NCBI GenBank assembly: GCA_017962285.1
Contig: JAGCVR010000096.1
Span: 1-24,866, forward strand
From: Muribaculaceae bacterium
GTDB taxonomy: Bacteria; Bacteroidota; Bacteroidia; Bacteroidales; Muribaculaceae
DNA length: 24,866 bases
Direction of reading: 5' to 3'
In this document: positions 15,627 to 24,356 of the stretch, piece after piece
Numbering within the stretch: the first letter of the stretch is position 1
Layout: each line of letters begins with the position of its first letter
Notes under the pieces: generated by a model
What the model saw: the letters and a program-made list of their open reading frames with translations, nothing else
Databases searched by the model: none
What the model was told of the DNA's origin: nothing
Translations under genes and position numbers: made by a program

Positions 15627-15893
15627 CTATTTTGACAAGAACTTTGAGGTGATGTAGGCATTAAGCGATTCTTTATACAACTCACCTATGGGAAGAGTTG
15701 TGTCGGCATCAAGAATCACATGGTTCTTGCTGATTTCCCTGATTTTCCTCAAGTTGACAATAAAACTGCGGTGAATTCTCATAAACTTGTTCGGGCGCAG
15801 ATATTCCTCCATTTTTTTCATGCTAAGGAGGGCGATAATCGCCTTGGGGCTGTATTCCACATATATGCGCAGATACTCGCTCATTGCCTCCAC
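15627..15893 (-). pseudogene. LytTR DNA-binding half of an interrupted response regulator
   Basis: The 88 codons from a GTG at 15893 encode a LytTR domain: EAMSEYLRIY, then FMRIHRSFIVNL and LPIGELYKE, as in LytR/AlgR-type regulators. The domain itself has no frameshift or gap. It is in the same frame as the receiver domain upstream (15912-16349) and is separated from it only by a TAA at 15912-15914 and six sense codons (IANIRY). The whole stretch 15627-16349 is 241 codons including that TAA, the normal size of a complete regulator. If the TAA is real, this half is made only by reinitiation at GTG 15893 or ATG 15884, or by stop readthrough; otherwise DNA binding is lost. Confidence 0.85.
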
Positions 15894-15911
15894 ATAGCGG
15901 ATATTAGCGAT

Positions 15912-16349
15912 TTAGATACGCACCACCTTGTAGTCGGTTTTTATGAAAATGGCATTGTCATCGTCCACACCACTCACCACAGCTCCGCTTATCAACTCCA
16001 TGTGTTTCCTCAGTTTCTCCACCGTGCGCTTGAAGTCGTCAAGGCCAAAAGGCTTCAGGAGATAATCGAGAGCATTGACCTTAAATCCCTCCACTGCATA
16101 CTCCGCATATGCGGTGGTGAAAATCACAATAGGGTGATTTTCGAGCGAACGGACAAAATCCATTCCATTGAGATCGGGCATATTGATGTCAACAAACATG
16201 GCATCCACATTGGTTTCCGACAGTTTCCTCTGTGCTTCCTCTGCACTGTTGAAAGCGCCCACAAGTTCCAGTCCTCCAACCTGCTTGATGTAGGATGTAA
16301 TCTGTTTGAGTGCCAGAGGCTCGTCGTCGATAGCAATGCAACGTATCAT
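15912..16349 (-). CDS. Receiver domain of an interrupted LytTR response regulator
   Basis: This 145-residue product is a complete receiver domain: acidic pocket Asp8-Asp9, phosphorylation site Asp54 in FVDINMP, Thr79 and Lys99 in LLKPF. It then runs through a linker into the first strand before the LytTR domain (FIKTDYKVVRI), where a TAA at 15912-15914 stops it. Translation beyond the stop continues at once into a normal LytTR domain in the same frame, so this is the front part of a single gene broken by one nonsense codon. The kinase gene ends seven bases upstream, and the two form an operon. As it stands the product could be phosphorylated but could not bind DNA. Confidence 0.88.
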   Translation of the reverse strand: MIRCIAIDDEPLALKQITSYIKQVGGLELVGAFNSAEEAQRKLSETNVDAMFVDINMPDLNGMDFVRSLENHPIVIFTTAYAEYAVEGFKVNALDYLLKPFGLDDFKRTVEKLRKHMELISGAVVSGVDDDNAIFIKTDYKVVRI

Positions 16350-16356
16350 AACTCTA

Positions 16357-17520
16357 TTATTTTGATTTGTTTTCTATATTTGATGCTTCTTTTAAAAATG
16401 GGACAGAAAGATTAACCCGATAATCTTCTTCCGTATCGGTGATATTGAGCGAATAGTTCTTACCATAGATTATGTCGAGCCGCTTGAGTGTATTCTCAAT
16501 TCCAATGCCGCCTTTTTCGGGAGCATCGGATGCTGTCACCTTATTGTTGGCGCAGGAAAACGCCACTTCCTCGTCGGAAACAGTAATCGCTATGTCGATT
16601 TTTGATTCCTGTTTATAGCTCACACCGTGTTTGAATGCGTTCTCGGCGAATGAGATGAAAATCAATGGTGGCACCTGCTGGTCGGGAATAGATGACGGAA
16701 TATTCAGGTTAATCGCCACCTTTTCGGGATAACGCATACGCATCAGCTCCACATAATTCTGCAGAAATTCCACTTCGCGGGCAAGTGGCACGATGTGTTT
16801 GTTGCTTTCGTAAAGAAGATACCGCATGAGTTTTGATAGTTCCAGAATGGAATTCTTGGCATTCTCAGGGTCAATATCCACCAGGGCATGAATATTGTTG
16901 AGCGTATTCATGAAAAAATGTGGATTAATCTGATATTTAAGATATTCAAGTCGTTGTTCAAGCGACTCTTTCTCCAATTCTTCCAGTTTTCGTGTCTTCT
17001 CTATGGAATAGAAGAAATACTTCACGCCCACATTAACGCCAAGTATCAGAAGCATTATGGTGAATGCCATGATATCGTGAATGTCAATTGGTGGTCTTGG
17101 CGGACGATCATCTGGCATTGGCCGAGGATTGACAGTGCCGTGACTGCCTTCCATGCCCTGATTTGTGGAGCCTGAAGCCTTCATCTGCTCCACAAATTCC
17201 GGCGGAGGAACATCTTCTGGATGATATGTGCACTGATATGTCTGAAATGAGATAATAAGCAGAAACGAGGCTGCGAGATAGGCGCTGATGCTACGTTTCC
17301 GGAAAAGCAGCGGCGCAATGAGGAAGTTATGAATGAGGAACACCACAAACAGGACAAAAATCGGTCGCCAAATATTATACACCGCTTGCCAGTGAAATGT
17401 GAAACTGCTGTCGATTGATGCACGCGCCGATATGCTCACCATCGGTGATGCGAACATAACAAACCAAAGCACAAAATATGTCCAAAATTCACCATATTTT
17501 ACGTTTTGTAATTTTTTCAT
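16357..17520 (-). CDS. LytS/YehU-type membrane sensor histidine kinase
   Basis: The 387-residue protein has four membrane segments (about 12-30, 50-72, 78-95 and 150-172), with a proline-rich loop (about 100-147) between the third and fourth. A short coiled linker (about 175-193) leads to the His_kinase domain. The phospho-acceptor is His201 in QINPHFFMNTL, the hallmark of this family, and the ATPase domain shows SFAENAFKHG (N box) and GGIGIENTLKRL (G box). Its partner should be the LytTR regulator directly downstream. That regulator carries an in-frame stop, so the signalling output may be lost or altered. No periplasmic ligand-binding domain is visible beyond the short loop, and the signal is unknown. 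Confidence 0.92.
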   Translation of the reverse strand: MKKLQNVKYGEFWTYFVLWFVMFASPMVSISARASIDSSFTFHWQAVYNIWRPIFVLFVVFLIHNFLIAPLLFRKRSISAYLAASFLLIISFQTYQCTYHPEDVPPPEFVEQMKASGSTNQGMEGSHGTVNPRPMPDDRPPRPPIDIHDIMAFTIMLLILGVNVGVKYFFYSIEKTRKLEELEKESLEQRLEYLKYQINPHFFMNTLNNIHALVDIDPENAKNSILELSKLMRYLLYESNKHIVPLAREVEFLQNYVELMRMRYPEKVAINLNIPSSIPDQQVPPLIFISFAENAFKHGVSYKQESKIDIAITVSDEEVAFSCANNKVTASDAPEKGGIGIENTLKRLDIIYGKNYSLNITDTEEDYRVNLSVPFLKEASNIENKSK

Positions 17521-17622: not shown

Positions 17623-17651
17623 TTGTGTTACATAATTTCTTTGTAACTTTG
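17623..17651 (+). promoter_or_regulatory. Promoter of the tandem serine hydrolases
   Basis: TTG at 17623-17625 and TAACTTTG at 17644-17651 are 18 bases apart. The transcript would begin near 17658, which excludes a GTG start at 17625 and supports the ATG at 17676. Confidence 0.55.
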
Positions 17652-17675
17652 TGGACTGAAAGGAAGAAAAACATT

Positions 17676-19289
17676 ATGCGACGGTTTTGGGGATTGCTTT
17701 TGACTTTGTTAATGTGCGTCAACATCGCATCATTGGCAAACGACCGGCTGGAACGCGCATCGGTGGCTTCGCAGGGCATCGACGAACGTGGGCTTATGAA
17801 CTTTATCGACACCCTTTGCTCGCTGAAAAACAGTGAAATCCACCACATAATGGTGGTTCGCGGAGGCAAAGTGGTGGCGGAAGCGCACTTCAGCCCCTTT
17901 GGTGCCGATGACGTTCACCACTTGTACTCGTGCAGCAAGACGGTTACGGCTCTTGCCGTGGGGATTGCCGCCGACAAGGGTTTGCTTTCTCTCTCCGACC
18001 GCGTGGTGGACTTCTTCCCCGATAAAATACCACAGGATGCCGACTCACTGCTGCACGAAATCACCATTCAGCATCTGCTCACAATGACCAGCGGAATAAG
18101 AAAAGACTCCCTGACGATGCAACGCTACTCCGACTGGGTGCTGGGATGGATGGAACAGGGCATGACTGCAACACCCGGGACAAAATGGGACTATGACACC
18201 ATGAGCACTTTCATGCTGAGCGCCATTATTCAAAAGGTAACAGGCATGAGATTGCTCGATTTCCTGAACGAGAACCTGTTCCACCCAATGGGAATTATTG
18301 AAGCCGACTGGGAAGAAAGCCCTGGCGGCATCAACACCGGCGGATGGGGATTACGGCTCAACACAGAGTCGCAGGCCAAGCTTGGCTTGCTCATGCTCAA
18401 TTACGGACAATGGAAAGGGCGAAACCTTGTGAGCCGGAAATGGGTGGATGACATGACACGCTGCCATAAGCGCTTCAACGAGAAAAAGGCACGTCCGCCA
18501 AAGTCGCTTCTTAGTAAAATCAAGTATTATCTGCGCTTGGTCTTTCTCACTATAAAAGGTTGGTTTACAGGAGAGGAACCAATAGAGAATGTCTTCTGGG
18601 ACGGTTATGGCTACCAGACAAAAATCCTTCATCATCCGTCGTTTGAATCGTTTTTCGCAATAGGGCTTTACGGACAGACTATTTTCGTGGACCGAAAACG
18701 CGACCTGGTAGTGGTGGTGAACGGTGCCGCCGCCGGATATGGAAACTTCATAAAAGCAATCTGGAACGTACTCTATCCAGCGTGTCTGCCTAAACCTCGA
18801 GGCGAAAGCGGATTGCAGCCCGATGTGGAAAAGAAATTGAATTCACTTGAAATAAGTCCTGTTAAAGGTGAATTAAACAACACCAACACGGCCGGTTATG
18901 CCAGCGGCAAAGAGCACCGTCTGGCGGGAAACGAACTGGGATGGCGCAAGTTCTCGGTCGCTATCAGCGACAGTGTGTGTACGCTGAAGGTGACACAGGA
19001 CGACAATACTACGATGACCGTAGCGTGCGGATACAACCGCTGGAACCATAACACTGTTACCGTTACTCCTCCAAGCGACCTGAAAGCGAAGAACGCCTTC
19101 GGCGGGCTGAAAGGCGACTGGGACATTGCGGGCAGCTTTGCCTGGACCGGACCGCACATGCTCGACATACATCTGCTTTACACCAACTGGGTTACAAGCC
19201 GACACATCGTGGTGGACTTCTGGCACGATGAAATCAGCGTTACCGACAATTTCATGACTGAAAACAAACAGACCGTAATGTTCAATTAA
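17676..19289 (+). CDS. Secreted class C beta-lactamase-fold serine hydrolase, copy 1
   Basis: From the ATG at 17676 the protein has 537 residues and begins with a clear signal peptide ending near IASLAND. I rejected the GTG at 17625 because it adds residues before the signal peptide and lies within the promoter. The beta-lactamase/penicillin-binding-protein fold (about 30-375) shows SCSK (Ser85, Lys88) as the SxxK motif. YDT at 173-175 stands where YxN is usual, and GQT in GLYGQTIFV stands where the third motif lies. Relative to copy 2 it has an insertion of about 40 residues (around 273-305), basic and partly hydrophobic. A C-terminal beta-rich domain follows. The substrate is unknown; peptidoglycan peptides, D-amino-acid peptides or esters are possible. 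It is divergent from the sensor kinase. Confidence 0.85.
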   Translation: MRRFWGLLLTLLMCVNIASLANDRLERASVASQGIDERGLMNFIDTLCSLKNSEIHHIMVVRGGKVVAEAHFSPFGADDVHHLYSCSKTVTALAVGIAADKGLLSLSDRVVDFFPDKIPQDADSLLHEITIQHLLTMTSGIRKDSLTMQRYSDWVLGWMEQGMTATPGTKWDYDTMSTFMLSAIIQKVTGMRLLDFLNENLFHPMGIIEADWEESPGGINTGGWGLRLNTESQAKLGLLMLNYGQWKGRNLVSRKWVDDMTRCHKRFNEKKARPPKSLLSKIKYYLRLVFLTIKGWFTGEEPIENVFWDGYGYQTKILHHPSFESFFAIGLYGQTIFVDRKRDLVVVVNGAAAGYGNFIKAIWNVLYPACLPKPRGESGLQPDVEKKLNSLEISPVKGELNNTNTAGYASGKEHRLAGNELGWRKFSVAISDSVCTLKVTQDDNTTMTVACGYNRWNHNTVTVTPPSDLKAKNAFGGLKGDWDIAGSFAWTGPHMLDIHLLYTNWVTSRHIVVDFWHDEISVTDNFMTENKQTVMFN

Positions 19290-19349: not shown

Positions 19350-20882
19350 ATGATACAGAAAAAACACATACTCAGCATCCTTGCTGTTTTGTTTCTGCCT
19401 CTTTTCGCAGTGGCACAGACAGGTGTGCTGCCTCGTTCACAAGCATGGGAACAGAACGTTGACCCGCAAGCGCTTCTCGAATTTGTGAAAGCGGTGACCG
19501 AAACAAAAGACACCGAACTTCACCATCTTATGGTGGTGCGCGGTGGAGCGGTATTAGCGGAAATTCATCCTGAGCCGTTCCGCGCCGAAGACCGGCACAC
19601 GCTGTATTCGGCAAGCAAGACTTTCACTGCTCTCGCTGCCGGACTCGCCTACGACGACAACCTTCTGCGCATCAACGACCGTGTGGCAAGTTTCTTCCCC
19701 GAATTTCTCCCCGACAGCGTGAGCGAGAAACTGGCGGAAATGACCGTGAAAGACTTGCTCACCATGAGCAGCGGAATAGTTCCCGACTGGGAAATGCGAA
19801 GCAACACCACCAAATGGATACAGACCTGGCTGGCTAAAAATGTGATTGACCCGGGCAAACAACTGCGCTACGACTCCATGACAACATATATGCTCAGCGC
19901 CGTGGTGCAGAAAGTGACCGGAAAAACAATCATGGACCTGCTCCGGGAGCGCATTTTCACCCCCATGGGAATAAGCGAAGTGGAGTGGGAAGAAAGCCCC
20001 GAAGGTATCAATACTGGCGGATGGGGACTACACATCCAGACCGAAAGTGAGGCAAAAATCGGAATGCTTCTCTGCCACAAGGGCGAATGGGAAGGCAAAC
20101 AGCTCGTTTCCCGCGAATGGATTGAACAAATGACATCCAAACAGATTCCTACCGGCAACCCCAACGATCCTCCTGCCGACAACAATCAGGGCTATGGCTA
20201 CGAGCCGTGGATGAGCATGGATCCTGGCGCTTTCTGTGCAAACGGGGCATTTGGGCAGTATATCGCCATGGTGCCTCAAAAAGATGTGGTGGTGGTGATA
20301 AGCGAACGCAGCGGACAGGGCGCTCAACAACTTAAACACATCTGGAACATCCTCATGCCTGGTGTAAAGGACGAACCCGTTGAGCCCGACGAAGCAGCCG
20401 AAAAGGCTATCGCTGATTTCTGCAACAAACAGAAGTTGCCAGTGGATAAAGGGAAAAAGAGCGTGATGATGAGCAAACCTGTGGAAAAGACCATGGGCGC
20501 ATTCACTATAAAACTCCAGGGCGCACCCACCATGACGATTGAACCTCGCGGTGGGGTGTATCAACTGACATGGGCCTTGAAAGAGGGTCCCATGAAATCG
20601 GTACCGCTGGCTTTCGACCAGTGGAGCTACCGCACCAACAGCGACCAGCCACCTTATTCCATCACTCCGCGCGGTCGTTTCACCGGACTTGGCAGGCAAT
20701 GGACCACGGCCGGACGCTACTGCTGGACAAACGGTCAGACCCTGAAGATGCAAGTGCAGTGGGTGAACTGGATTAGCGCACGCTACATCACCGTCGACTT
20801 CAAAGAGATGAAGGTTACGGTAAGAGACAATTTCACCGGCAAGACCATTGCCTACAATATTCAGAGCTATCAGGGTTCATAA
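19350..20882 (+). CDS. Secreted class C beta-lactamase-fold serine hydrolase, copy 2
   Basis: This 510-residue paralog of the preceding gene has a signal peptide ending near AVAQ. Motifs are SASK (Ser87, Lys90), YDS at 174-176 in place of YxN, and GAFGQYIAMV as the third motif. Blocks shared with copy 1 include HHLMVVRGG, WEESPEGINTGGWGL, and the C-terminal ARYITVDF followed by VTVRDNF. It lacks copy 1's basic insertion and so resembles the plain family form. A beta-rich C-terminal domain (about 380-505) is present in both. The gap between the genes is 60 bases with no clear promoter, which suggests one transcript and an old tandem duplication. Confidence 0.87.
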   Translation: MIQKKHILSILAVLFLPLFAVAQTGVLPRSQAWEQNVDPQALLEFVKAVTETKDTELHHLMVVRGGAVLAEIHPEPFRAEDRHTLYSASKTFTALAAGLAYDDNLLRINDRVASFFPEFLPDSVSEKLAEMTVKDLLTMSSGIVPDWEMRSNTTKWIQTWLAKNVIDPGKQLRYDSMTTYMLSAVVQKVTGKTIMDLLRERIFTPMGISEVEWEESPEGINTGGWGLHIQTESEAKIGMLLCHKGEWEGKQLVSREWIEQMTSKQIPTGNPNDPPADNNQGYGYEPWMSMDPGAFCANGAFGQYIAMVPQKDVVVVISERSGQGAQQLKHIWNILMPGVKDEPVEPDEAAEKAIADFCNKQKLPVDKGKKSVMMSKPVEKTMGAFTIKLQGAPTMTIEPRGGVYQLTWALKEGPMKSVPLAFDQWSYRTNSDQPPYSITPRGRFTGLGRQWTTAGRYCWTNGQTLKMQVQWVNWISARYITVDFKEMKVTVRDNFTGKTIAYNIQSYQGS

Positions 20883-21639: not shown

Positions 21640-22590
21640 ATGAGACGGAAAATTATAATGATTGGCGAGTGTGTGCTCGATGTGCTCTTTGAAGGCAACC
21701 AGCCCCAGAGGTCATTCGTAGGGGGCAGAATCGCCAATGCGGGAGCATCGCTGGCACAAACCGGACTTGACGTGGCAATGGTGAGCGAATGTGCCACCGA
21801 CCGCGTGGGAGACATAATAATCGACTTTCTTCAAAAGAAATGTGTGGACACACATTCTGTGGACCGCTTCGCCGATGGAAAAACCGCTTTGTCGGCAATA
21901 TTCAGCGGTGGCAGTGAGACAATGTCGCGCATTGTGAACTATGGCGTTTATCCCGACGAGAGATTCGACGTGGTGTGGCCGAGAATCGACCAGGACGACA
22001 TCGTAATTTTCGGCTCGCTCTATGGGGTGGAGAATTCGTTGCGTGAACGACTGATGGATCTGCTCACTCACTGCGTGGAGCGGCACGCAATAATAATCTA
22101 TCTGCCGGGATTTCAGCACGGACTGAATGTCCGCATCACCCATGTAATGCCCGCAATACTGGAAAATCTGGAAATAAGCGACTTTGTCATTACTCACCAA
22201 AACGATGTGAACCAGATTTTCCCAGGTGAGAGCGGAGAAGAAGCTTATCACAATCACATTGAATTCTATTGCCACAACCATCTGCACATTTCTCAGGATT
22301 TCAGCACAACGCTTTATTACAAGGGGGCTTATCAGAATTCTCCCGCTCCTGCCCGTGAAGTGCGCAACAGCCTCGGTTGGCAGGCGGGAATTATTGCCGG
22401 ACTGGCTTTCGCCATTATCAGCAACGGATTCACAAAAACCGACATATCAGCATTGAGTAATGCTCAGTGGCAGAATGTTCTGAATGAGGCCATAACGTGG
22501 GCAAAAGAAGGCGAATCGCACGACGACAACTGCGTGGGAGCAGATTTCGCAAAAGAAAAGAAAGTACAATTACTTACCGACATTCAATGA
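21640..22590 (+). CDS. PfkB-fold carbohydrate kinase homolog lacking the catalytic motif
   Basis: The 316-residue protein has the ribokinase/PfkB fold: IIMIGECVLDVLF at the start, the GGRIANAGASLAQTG substrate loop, and ITWAKE near the end. The second signature, normally (D/S)T(I/T)GAGDxFxxG, reads NSLGWQAGIIAGL (from Asn243). It aligns as a four-residue loss that removes the anion hole and the catalytic Asp. The usual DPNFR strand also reads LPGFQ (155-159). The rest of the frame is intact. Kinase activity is therefore doubtful; a regulatory, binding or structural role is more likely. It sits between a SIS isomerase and a helical-repeat protein. Its stop overlaps the next start (ATGA at 22587-22590), so the two are translationally coupled. 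Confidence 0.85.
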   Translation: MRRKIIMIGECVLDVLFEGNQPQRSFVGGRIANAGASLAQTGLDVAMVSECATDRVGDIIIDFLQKKCVDTHSVDRFADGKTALSAIFSGGSETMSRIVNYGVYPDERFDVVWPRIDQDDIVIFGSLYGVENSLRERLMDLLTHCVERHAIIIYLPGFQHGLNVRITHVMPAILENLEISDFVITHQNDVNQIFPGESGEEAYHNHIEFYCHNHLHISQDFSTTLYYKGAYQNSPAPAREVRNSLGWQAGIIAGLAFAIISNGFTKTDISALSNAQWQNVLNEAITWAKEGESHDDNCVGADFAKEKKVQLLTDIQ

Positions 22591-24356
22591 CAAGACTTCT
22601 GCTTGAAACATCTTTCCCATCATCGGTAACCGACGAAAAACTGATTGCCGAACAGATAGAAACCACCGGCAAGATGCCTGTGGAGGAAAGTGCTGAAGCA
22701 CAAGACAATGCAAAATTGTGCTATGTCTTATATCTCGTCAGGAATGAAGAACGGACTCTTGCACTGGATTTCATCAATTCGGTTTTGGAGAGCGAAAGGC
22801 ACCAGTTGATGCCTCCGCTGCATCACGCATGGCTAAGACTGGCCCGGATGACCCTTCTGATTGATATTGAGGACTTCAGTGCCGCACTTAACGAAGCCGA
22901 AAACACGCTGGTGATTCTCTCGGGTATGATTGGGCGGAAGAACGACACTTTTCTGGCGATTGTGGCCTCAATTCTGTTCAATTTATCCCGACTTCACCAT
23001 GCCACCGGTGAAAGCGGACGTGCCACTAAGGAACTGCTGAAATCGCAACAACTCTTTGAACGCCTCGCTAAAAAAGACGAAGCAAAGTATTCGGCAATGC
23101 TCTTTCATGCTGTGAAAGCTTCAACGAGCATCATAAAATCCCGCCAGAGGCAGATGCAGATTTTTGCTCATTATCAGGACATTACAGAACAGAACACTCT
23201 TCTTCTAAACGATGACAGTGATGCCACGATTGCTCTTGGCAATCTGGTGGATTCGCTGGCTCACGAAGGCGAAATAATGCTTGAACTCGGCAACGGACGT
23301 AATGCCGTGAAATACTATACAAGAGCTCTCCGATACCAGAAACGTCTTTCGGACGGCATGGGGATGCGTGAGCTGGAACTGTCGCTGGGGCTGGCACGCG
23401 GACTGATGCGTGTAACCAACCGGCGTGCAGCGGCAGAGCAGCTCCTGTCTTCTCTTCTGCCTCTGGCTCAGCGTTTAGGAGCTCAGAAAGAAGAAAGTGA
23501 AATTACGGATTTACTCAATAGCAAAAATAAAAACTTCAATATCATGAATCTCTTGAAGACTATTTTCACGTGTGTGGTTTTAACTCTTTGCGCCGCCACA
23601 AGTGCCGACGCACAACTCATAGTGGGACACCGCGGCTCGGTATGGGGGGTGGAAAACACCAAGGCTGCTTTCGTAAACGGTGCCAGAGCCGGTGCCTGGG
23701 GACTTGAGTGCGACATTCATCTCACTGCCGACGGTGCTTTCGTGGTGTGCCACGATGCCACCACCAAGCGAATTGGAGGCACTGAAGAGCGTCTGGGATC
23801 AATTAATCTGAATAGAGCCATGGCGATTGAACTGTCGCAGACGCGTCGCGGCATATACTACGCAGGGCATCTCATTTCGCTGGGTGAATATCTTGATATC
23901 TGCAAGGAGGAAAATGTGGTTCCCGTGATTGAGGTGAAATACACCGACTGCGCCACCGTACACAGCGAAGAGAAAAACCCCGAAAACAACAATTTCACCG
24001 GCGTACCGGCGCTGCTGAGCCTCGTGGAAAGCAAAGGCTTGCTCGACAAGGCTGTGATTATCTCATTCATGCCCGGGGTGATTGAATATATAAAGACAAA
24101 CCATCCGAATGTCCAGGTTCAGGTGCTTGCCGGTGATGGCGACATCAACAACTGGGTAACATGGTGCAAGGAGCGCAAAATCGACCTGGATGCCTCATGG
24201 GGCCTGATTACAAAAGAAGCCGTGGACGAACTGCATAAAGCGGGTCTGAAAGTGAACGTATGGACGGTGGACGACCCCGAGGTATTTGCCCGACTGCAGG
24301 AATGGGGGGTGGACTACATCACCACTAATGCGCTGTTTCCCCAAAAGTCAAACTGA
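22587..24356 (+). CDS. Helical-repeat (TPR-like) protein fused in frame to a GDPD enzyme
   Basis: The reading frame is open for 589 residues. I chose the ATG at 22587 because it overlaps the previous stop; the frame upstream of it is a shadow of the PfkB gene. Residues 1-318 are alpha-helical and hydrophilic, with TPR-like repeats (for example NGRNAVKYYTRALRYQKRL) and no signal peptide. At residue 320 a Met begins a typical signal sequence (NLLKTIFTCVVLTLCAA), followed by a complete glycerophosphodiester phosphodiesterase domain. The junction (about 312-319, SKNKNFNI) is A-rich at DNA level and looks like a former intergenic spacer whose stop was lost. If made as one chain, the helical part would be cytoplasmic and the enzyme periplasmic. 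If the inner ATG is used, there are two products. Confidence 0.75.
   Translation: MTRLLLETSFPSSVTDEKLIAEQIETTGKMPVEESAEAQDNAKLCYVLYLVRNEERTLALDFINSVLESERHQLMPPLHHAWLRLARMTLLIDIEDFSAALNEAENTLVILSGMIGRKNDTFLAIVASILFNLSRLHHATGESGRATKELLKSQQLFERLAKKDEAKYSAMLFHAVKASTSIIKSRQRQMQIFAHYQDITEQNTLLLNDDSDATIALGNLVDSLAHEGEIMLELGNGRNAVKYYTRALRYQKRLSDGMGMRELELSLGLARGLMRVTNRRAAAEQLLSSLLPLAQRLGAQKEESEITDLLNSKNKNFNIMNLLKTIFTCVVLTLCAATSADAQLIVGHRGSVWGVENTKAAFVNGARAGAWGLECDIHLTADGAFVVCHDATTKRIGGTEERLGSINLNRAMAIELSQTRRGIYYAGHLISLGEYLDICKEENVVPVIEVKYTDCATVHSEEKNPENNNFTGVPALLSLVESKGLLDKAVIISFMPGVIEYIKTNHPNVQVQVLAGDGDINNWVTWCKERKIDLDASWGLITKEAVDELHKAGLKVNVWTVDDPEVFARLQEWGVDYITTNALFPQKSN
23544..24356 (+). CDS. Glycerophosphodiester phosphodiesterase (alternative inner start)
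   Basis: From the inner ATG at 23544 the product is 270 residues with its own signal peptide, cleaved near ADAQ. The TIM-barrel active site is complete: His29-Arg30 in VGHRG, Glu55 and Asp57 in GLECDIHLTADG, and His70 in VVCHD. It should hydrolyse glycerophosphodiesters (deacylated phospholipids) to glycerol 3-phosphate and an alcohol in the periplasm. An A-rich stretch at 23522-23533 would serve as a Bacteroidetes-type ribosome-binding region. Full length and normal signal peptide suggest that this start is used, with or without the longer fused form. A substrate link to the phospholipase A and LTA-synthase-like genes in this window is possible but unproven. Confidence 0.8.
   Translation: MNLLKTIFTCVVLTLCAATSADAQLIVGHRGSVWGVENTKAAFVNGARAGAWGLECDIHLTADGAFVVCHDATTKRIGGTEERLGSINLNRAMAIELSQTRRGIYYAGHLISLGEYLDICKEENVVPVIEVKYTDCATVHSEEKNPENNNFTGVPALLSLVESKGLLDKAVIISFMPGVIEYIKTNHPNVQVQVLAGDGDINNWVTWCKERKIDLDASWGLITKEAVDELHKAGLKVNVWTVDDPEVFARLQEWGVDYITTNALFPQKSN

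Follow-up and report, generated by a model that had tools for sequence, protein, structure and literature searches.

A response-regulator gene on the minus strand of the window (the whole 24,866-nucleotide stretch of DNA analysed here) is interrupted by a single premature TAA at 15912-15914. The likeliest explanation is a recent mutation of an ordinary sort or an error in the sequence, not a new kind of regulator. We see about an even chance that the stop is a very recent, private nonsense allele in an ordinary LytTR regulator.

The regulator frame, as read from the open reading frames, opens at ATG 16349 and closes at TAG 15627-15629, and the TAA is the sole break in its 240 codons of receiver and LytTR sequence, occupying residue 146 of 240 with 145 codons before it and 94 after. 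The receiver part (15912..16349, minus strand, 145 aa, ending at the stop) was matched by Response_reg (PF00072) over residues 6-110 at 73.8 bits, against a Pfam cut-off of 30.2, and the remainder of the frame (15627..15911, minus strand, 94 codons and its own TAG) by LytTR (PF04397) at 63.8 bits, well over the Pfam cut-off. With the stop replaced by X, the whole frame gave a LytTR match of 64.5 bits that spanned the stop (residues 141-232; 15654..15929, minus strand, coordinates calculated from the residue numbers). Residues D9, E10, D54, T78, T79 and K99, the key active-site residues of such receivers, are all present in the window copy, and each of these columns is kept by 173-174 of 174 catalogue relatives (173 for the phosphoacceptor D54). 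Single-base shuffling of the 94 codons after the stop left 41 of 20,000 shuffles open, so this part of the frame is coding and unlikely to be open by chance. The initial annotation had described a receiver and a LytTR domain in one frame, split only by the TAA and with their key residues kept, and that description is borne out by the Pfam matches to both halves and, as to key residues, for the receiver.

What the initial annotation observed is correct save for its claim that the TAA falls at a normal domain junction. Nearly all of the 60 matches listed in a PDB sequence search with the catalogue protein P0001 cover the receiver only, and an AlphaFold model was used to place the stop; it was built on P0001, which is near-identical to the window regulator and intact, from a 37-sequence alignment (mean pLDDT 83.6, pTM 0.50). 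In this model the low-confidence linker comprises residues 122-130, followed by strands at 133-137, 142-146 and 150-155. The Pfam LytTR match starts at residue 141 (profile position 2), five residues ahead of the stop, which on the predicted structure sits inside the output domain, where its second predicted strand ends. As encoded, the LytTR domain is not carried in the same polypeptide as the receiver, the stop lying within the match, and neither piece holds the whole DNA-binding domain.

It had been proposed that receiver and LytTR domain now work as separate proteins, the second translated from GTG 15893 or ATG 15884. We regard this as quite improbable because the cut lies within the DNA-binding domain. 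The first two in-frame ATG or GTG codons after the stop, both hypothetical starts (GTG 15893-15891 and ATG 15884-15882; 15882..15893, minus strand), lie within 10 codons of it, and LytTR-only catalogue proteins of other species have their first residue at the matching Met (P0176, P0177) or slightly before it (P0179, P0181, P0189). Both codons, however, are past two output-domain strands predicted in the P0001 model, so that restart products would be without two strands of the LytTR fold, and the listed LytTR reading frame, which begins at GTG 15893, is without the LytTR portion around the stop. The checked relatives have one fused gene, and near-identical versions of either piece were not among the catalogue matches listed: no near-identical receiver-only protein was found among the best 120 of 7,999 matches to the receiver piece, and the 17 LytTR-only proteins listed for the LytTR piece reach no more than 68% identity, none being near-identical, in a catalogue clustered at 90% identity in which a truncated copy could hide in another cluster. 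Fourteen of these 17 are on contigs of 0.57-1.51 kb, and many may therefore be fragments.

Some catalogue entries do speak against this view. P0176 and P0177, each of 84 aa, come from contigs of 1.1 and 1.2 kb; the contigs of P0182 and P0189, likewise LytTR-only and from other species, are long (10 kb and 36 kb). Two receiver-only catalogue proteins (P0130, P0167) end near the position of the window stop, at different points. Such pieces occur occasionally, and the receiver-only and LytTR-only proteins alike may be disrupted genes, fragments or errors.

The two best catalogue matches to the regulator, P0001 and P0002, each have 240 aa, share 99% and 98% identity with it, and run uninterrupted across the stop site. 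P0001 differs from the window copy at the stop and at one residue, and P0002 at the stop and at three residues. All 145 residues before the stop equal those of P0001, as do 93 of the 94 after it; the part after the stop is thus not visibly decayed, and the lesion, if real, is young. A second sequence bearing the stop was not found in the catalogue searches with the receiver and LytTR pieces.

Comparison of the same locus in relatives, as had been proposed initially, gave no checked orthologue holding the stop. A match at 54-67% identity, taken as the orthologue, was listed in 33 of 36 same-genus genomes (G004, G022 and G031 gave more distant matches only), and an internal stop was present in none of the 33. 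A wider set of 99 relative loci was assembled from 19 same-genus loci and 80 others (the best 80 of at least 572). All but one span residues 5-225 in one piece, L068 being cut by a contig end, and no internal stop was found in the 98 fully covered loci, the last 8 aligned columns being left uncounted. These 98 are 48-66% identical to the window regulator and, with four identical pairs, comprise 94 distinct sequences. Residue 146 is variable among relatives (N, D, S, E, L, A and others). Separate receiver and LytTR genes in all relatives had been named in advance as the finding that would speak against a split, and the checked relatives carry a single fused receiver-LytTR gene. From these comparisons the stop appears private to this one assembly; it is not conserved among orthologues, and intact near-identical copies together with relatives free of the stop are as expected of an ordinary nonsense allele.

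A stop recurring in the family was also considered. Six more distant LytTR regulators of relatives, flagged for stops, and one split match were fetched and aligned as a paralogue check, and recurrence was rejected: the flagged stops of L021, L022, L023, L025 and L026 are at the C-terminal end of the match or within a few residues of it. L024 (G001:C142), a 38% paralogue, has a TAG inside its LytTR domain, and the paralogue L027 (G036:C64) has a frame change and a gap between its domains, before LytTR. Because the paralogue lesions fall at other places, there is no shared stop at the regulator site.

Stop readthrough, in which the TAA would be read through often enough to give full-length regulator, had been offered as a further explanation and is hardly credible here. 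In its favour, conserved coding sequence lies in one frame on both sides of the stop, but the stop is missing from all checked orthologues, and TAA serves as the terminator of 10 of the 17 window frames checked. A suppressor tRNA is unsupported: no UAA-reading anticodon occurs among the 21 tRNAs found in the assembled part of the organism's own, incomplete genome. A tRNA-SeC (anticodon tca) was called by ARAGORN at L120 1500-1593 (minus strand) on contig C146 of this genome, about 1.2 kb from a tRNA-Gln.

Of the explanations first put forward, a very recent nonsense mutation is supported by the intact near-identical versions and by the checked orthologues, none of which has the stop. A sequencing or assembly error is supported as well, the same evidence fitting both. 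That the stop is an error of consensus or assembly, in an organism whose regulator is intact like P0001 and P0002, is a sizeable possibility, if short of an even one. The stop is seen in this one draft genome only, which is 61% complete and in 224 contigs, and the near-identical catalogue versions are intact. Among the window copy, P0001 and P0002, every difference is private to one of the three, and P0002 departs from the conserved residues R144 (165 of 174 relatives) and Y152 (162 of 174); private differences of this kind, some of them at conserved residues of P0002, are a pattern also expected from such errors. Against an error, no second split gene was seen by eye in the list of window reading frames, and none of 43 domain matches in the organism's own genome holds a stop (20 ABC_tran, 5 Response_reg, 6 HATPase_c and 12 GT2, including weak matches, several matches per gene and the window regulator's own receiver). 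Generally poor frames in this genome were rejected as an explanation on the same count. Of the 2,151 possible single substitutions in the regulator gene, 82 would create a stop, a proportion that cannot separate mutation from error because it holds for both alike.

The nonsense-allele reading places the stop in an otherwise familiar pair of genes. A sensor histidine kinase frame (16357..17520, minus strand, 387 aa) is open throughout, ends 7 bases before the regulator start and matches PF06580 at 90 bits. It has three hydrophobic stretches and motifs resembling NPHF, the N box and the G box, and the kinase of a relative can be aligned with it over the full length (L010, L015). The kinase had been called intact, and the open frame, the PF06580 match and the end-to-end alignment agree with this; no HATPase_c match was listed for it by Pfam. 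Of the 51 loci shown, 49 have a relative of the kinase next to the regulator (all 19 of L002-L020 and 30 of the 32 of L028-L059); the exceptions are L033, which starts at the regulator, and L052. To judge by gene order, the kinase-regulator pairing is widely kept, and an adjacent PF06580-type kinase is usual, if not strictly defining, for LytTR response regulators. With such regulators and their PF06580 kinases the window pair shares the two domains in the same order, the adjacent kinase and the conserved receiver residues, but in the window copy a stop breaks off the LytTR match after five residues. LytTR-type regulators are of the AgrA, AlgR and VirR kind, and PF06580 kinases are LytS- and YehU-like.

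The plus strand encodes, at 17625-19289 and 19350-20882, two serine hydrolases in tandem that belong to the Pfam family Beta-lactamase (PF00144). It had been suggested that these divergent genes may be controlled by the pair, a link that is unsupported by gene order, the genes not being beside the pair in the relatives' loci, though it might still hold for this species. Neither the window serine hydrolases nor the amidohydrolase turned up in any of the 51 relative loci, of which L002-L020 cover about 1.5 kb on each side, or in any of seven same-genus loci (L134-L140) covering about 6-9 kb on each side, two of which overlap loci of the 51-locus set.

Elsewhere in the window, at 22575-24356 (plus strand), a protein judged TPR-like by eye runs in frame and stop-free into a GDPD-type phosphodiesterase (PF03009). 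The TPR-like part has no Pfam match, and a signal-peptide-like stretch was noted by eye at the join. An open frame of at least 590 aa is present in 21 of 37 genus genomes searched, the window genome included, and the corresponding frame is 330-392 aa in the remaining 16. The join was read in the window genome and seven others (L141-L148). In 5 of 7 short-frame genomes (L149-L155) the TPR-like protein ends in NIM-x-L/M-LK-x-I/L-F/S and is followed by a stop, the pattern being unmatched in L152 and L154; in the fused genomes nearly the same tail makes up what is presumed to be the beginning of the signal peptide. The join has the look of a conserved fusion by stop loss, a protein tail having been turned into a signal peptide. 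A stop lost by error was rejected for the long fused frame (22497-24356): because the join recurs in seven other genomes, it does not point to an error here.

Were the regulator stop a nonsense allele, the cell would make from this gene, by kind a common LytTR response regulator partnered by the histidine kinase encoded directly ahead of it, a 145-aa product in which the first two output-domain strands follow the receiver and linker. This truncated receiver would probably still be phosphorylated by the kinase, because the active-site residues are kept. The product would be unable to bind DNA through LytTR, and the downstream LytTR piece would be either unmade or made without part of its fold and inactive. 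With no complete DNA-binding domain on the phosphorylated piece, the output of the pathway would be lost. It is very improbable that the stop is genuine and maintained in a fraction of the population, where the regulator, reduced to a stand-alone receiver, would take phosphate from its kinase and silence the pathway, this loss-of-output state coexisting with the intact one. Ordinary nonsense pseudogenes are a general class, and the window regulator resembles them in its isolated stop, intact flanking code and near-identical intact copies elsewhere; a consensus error, however, would look identical.

The case serves mainly as a caution: a lone in-frame stop in one draft genome calls first for comparison with near-identical copies, and only then for proposals of readthrough or split genes. 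If the stop is real, the window regulator would be a further example of a two-component pathway that has lost its output by a single change while its kinase frame stays open.
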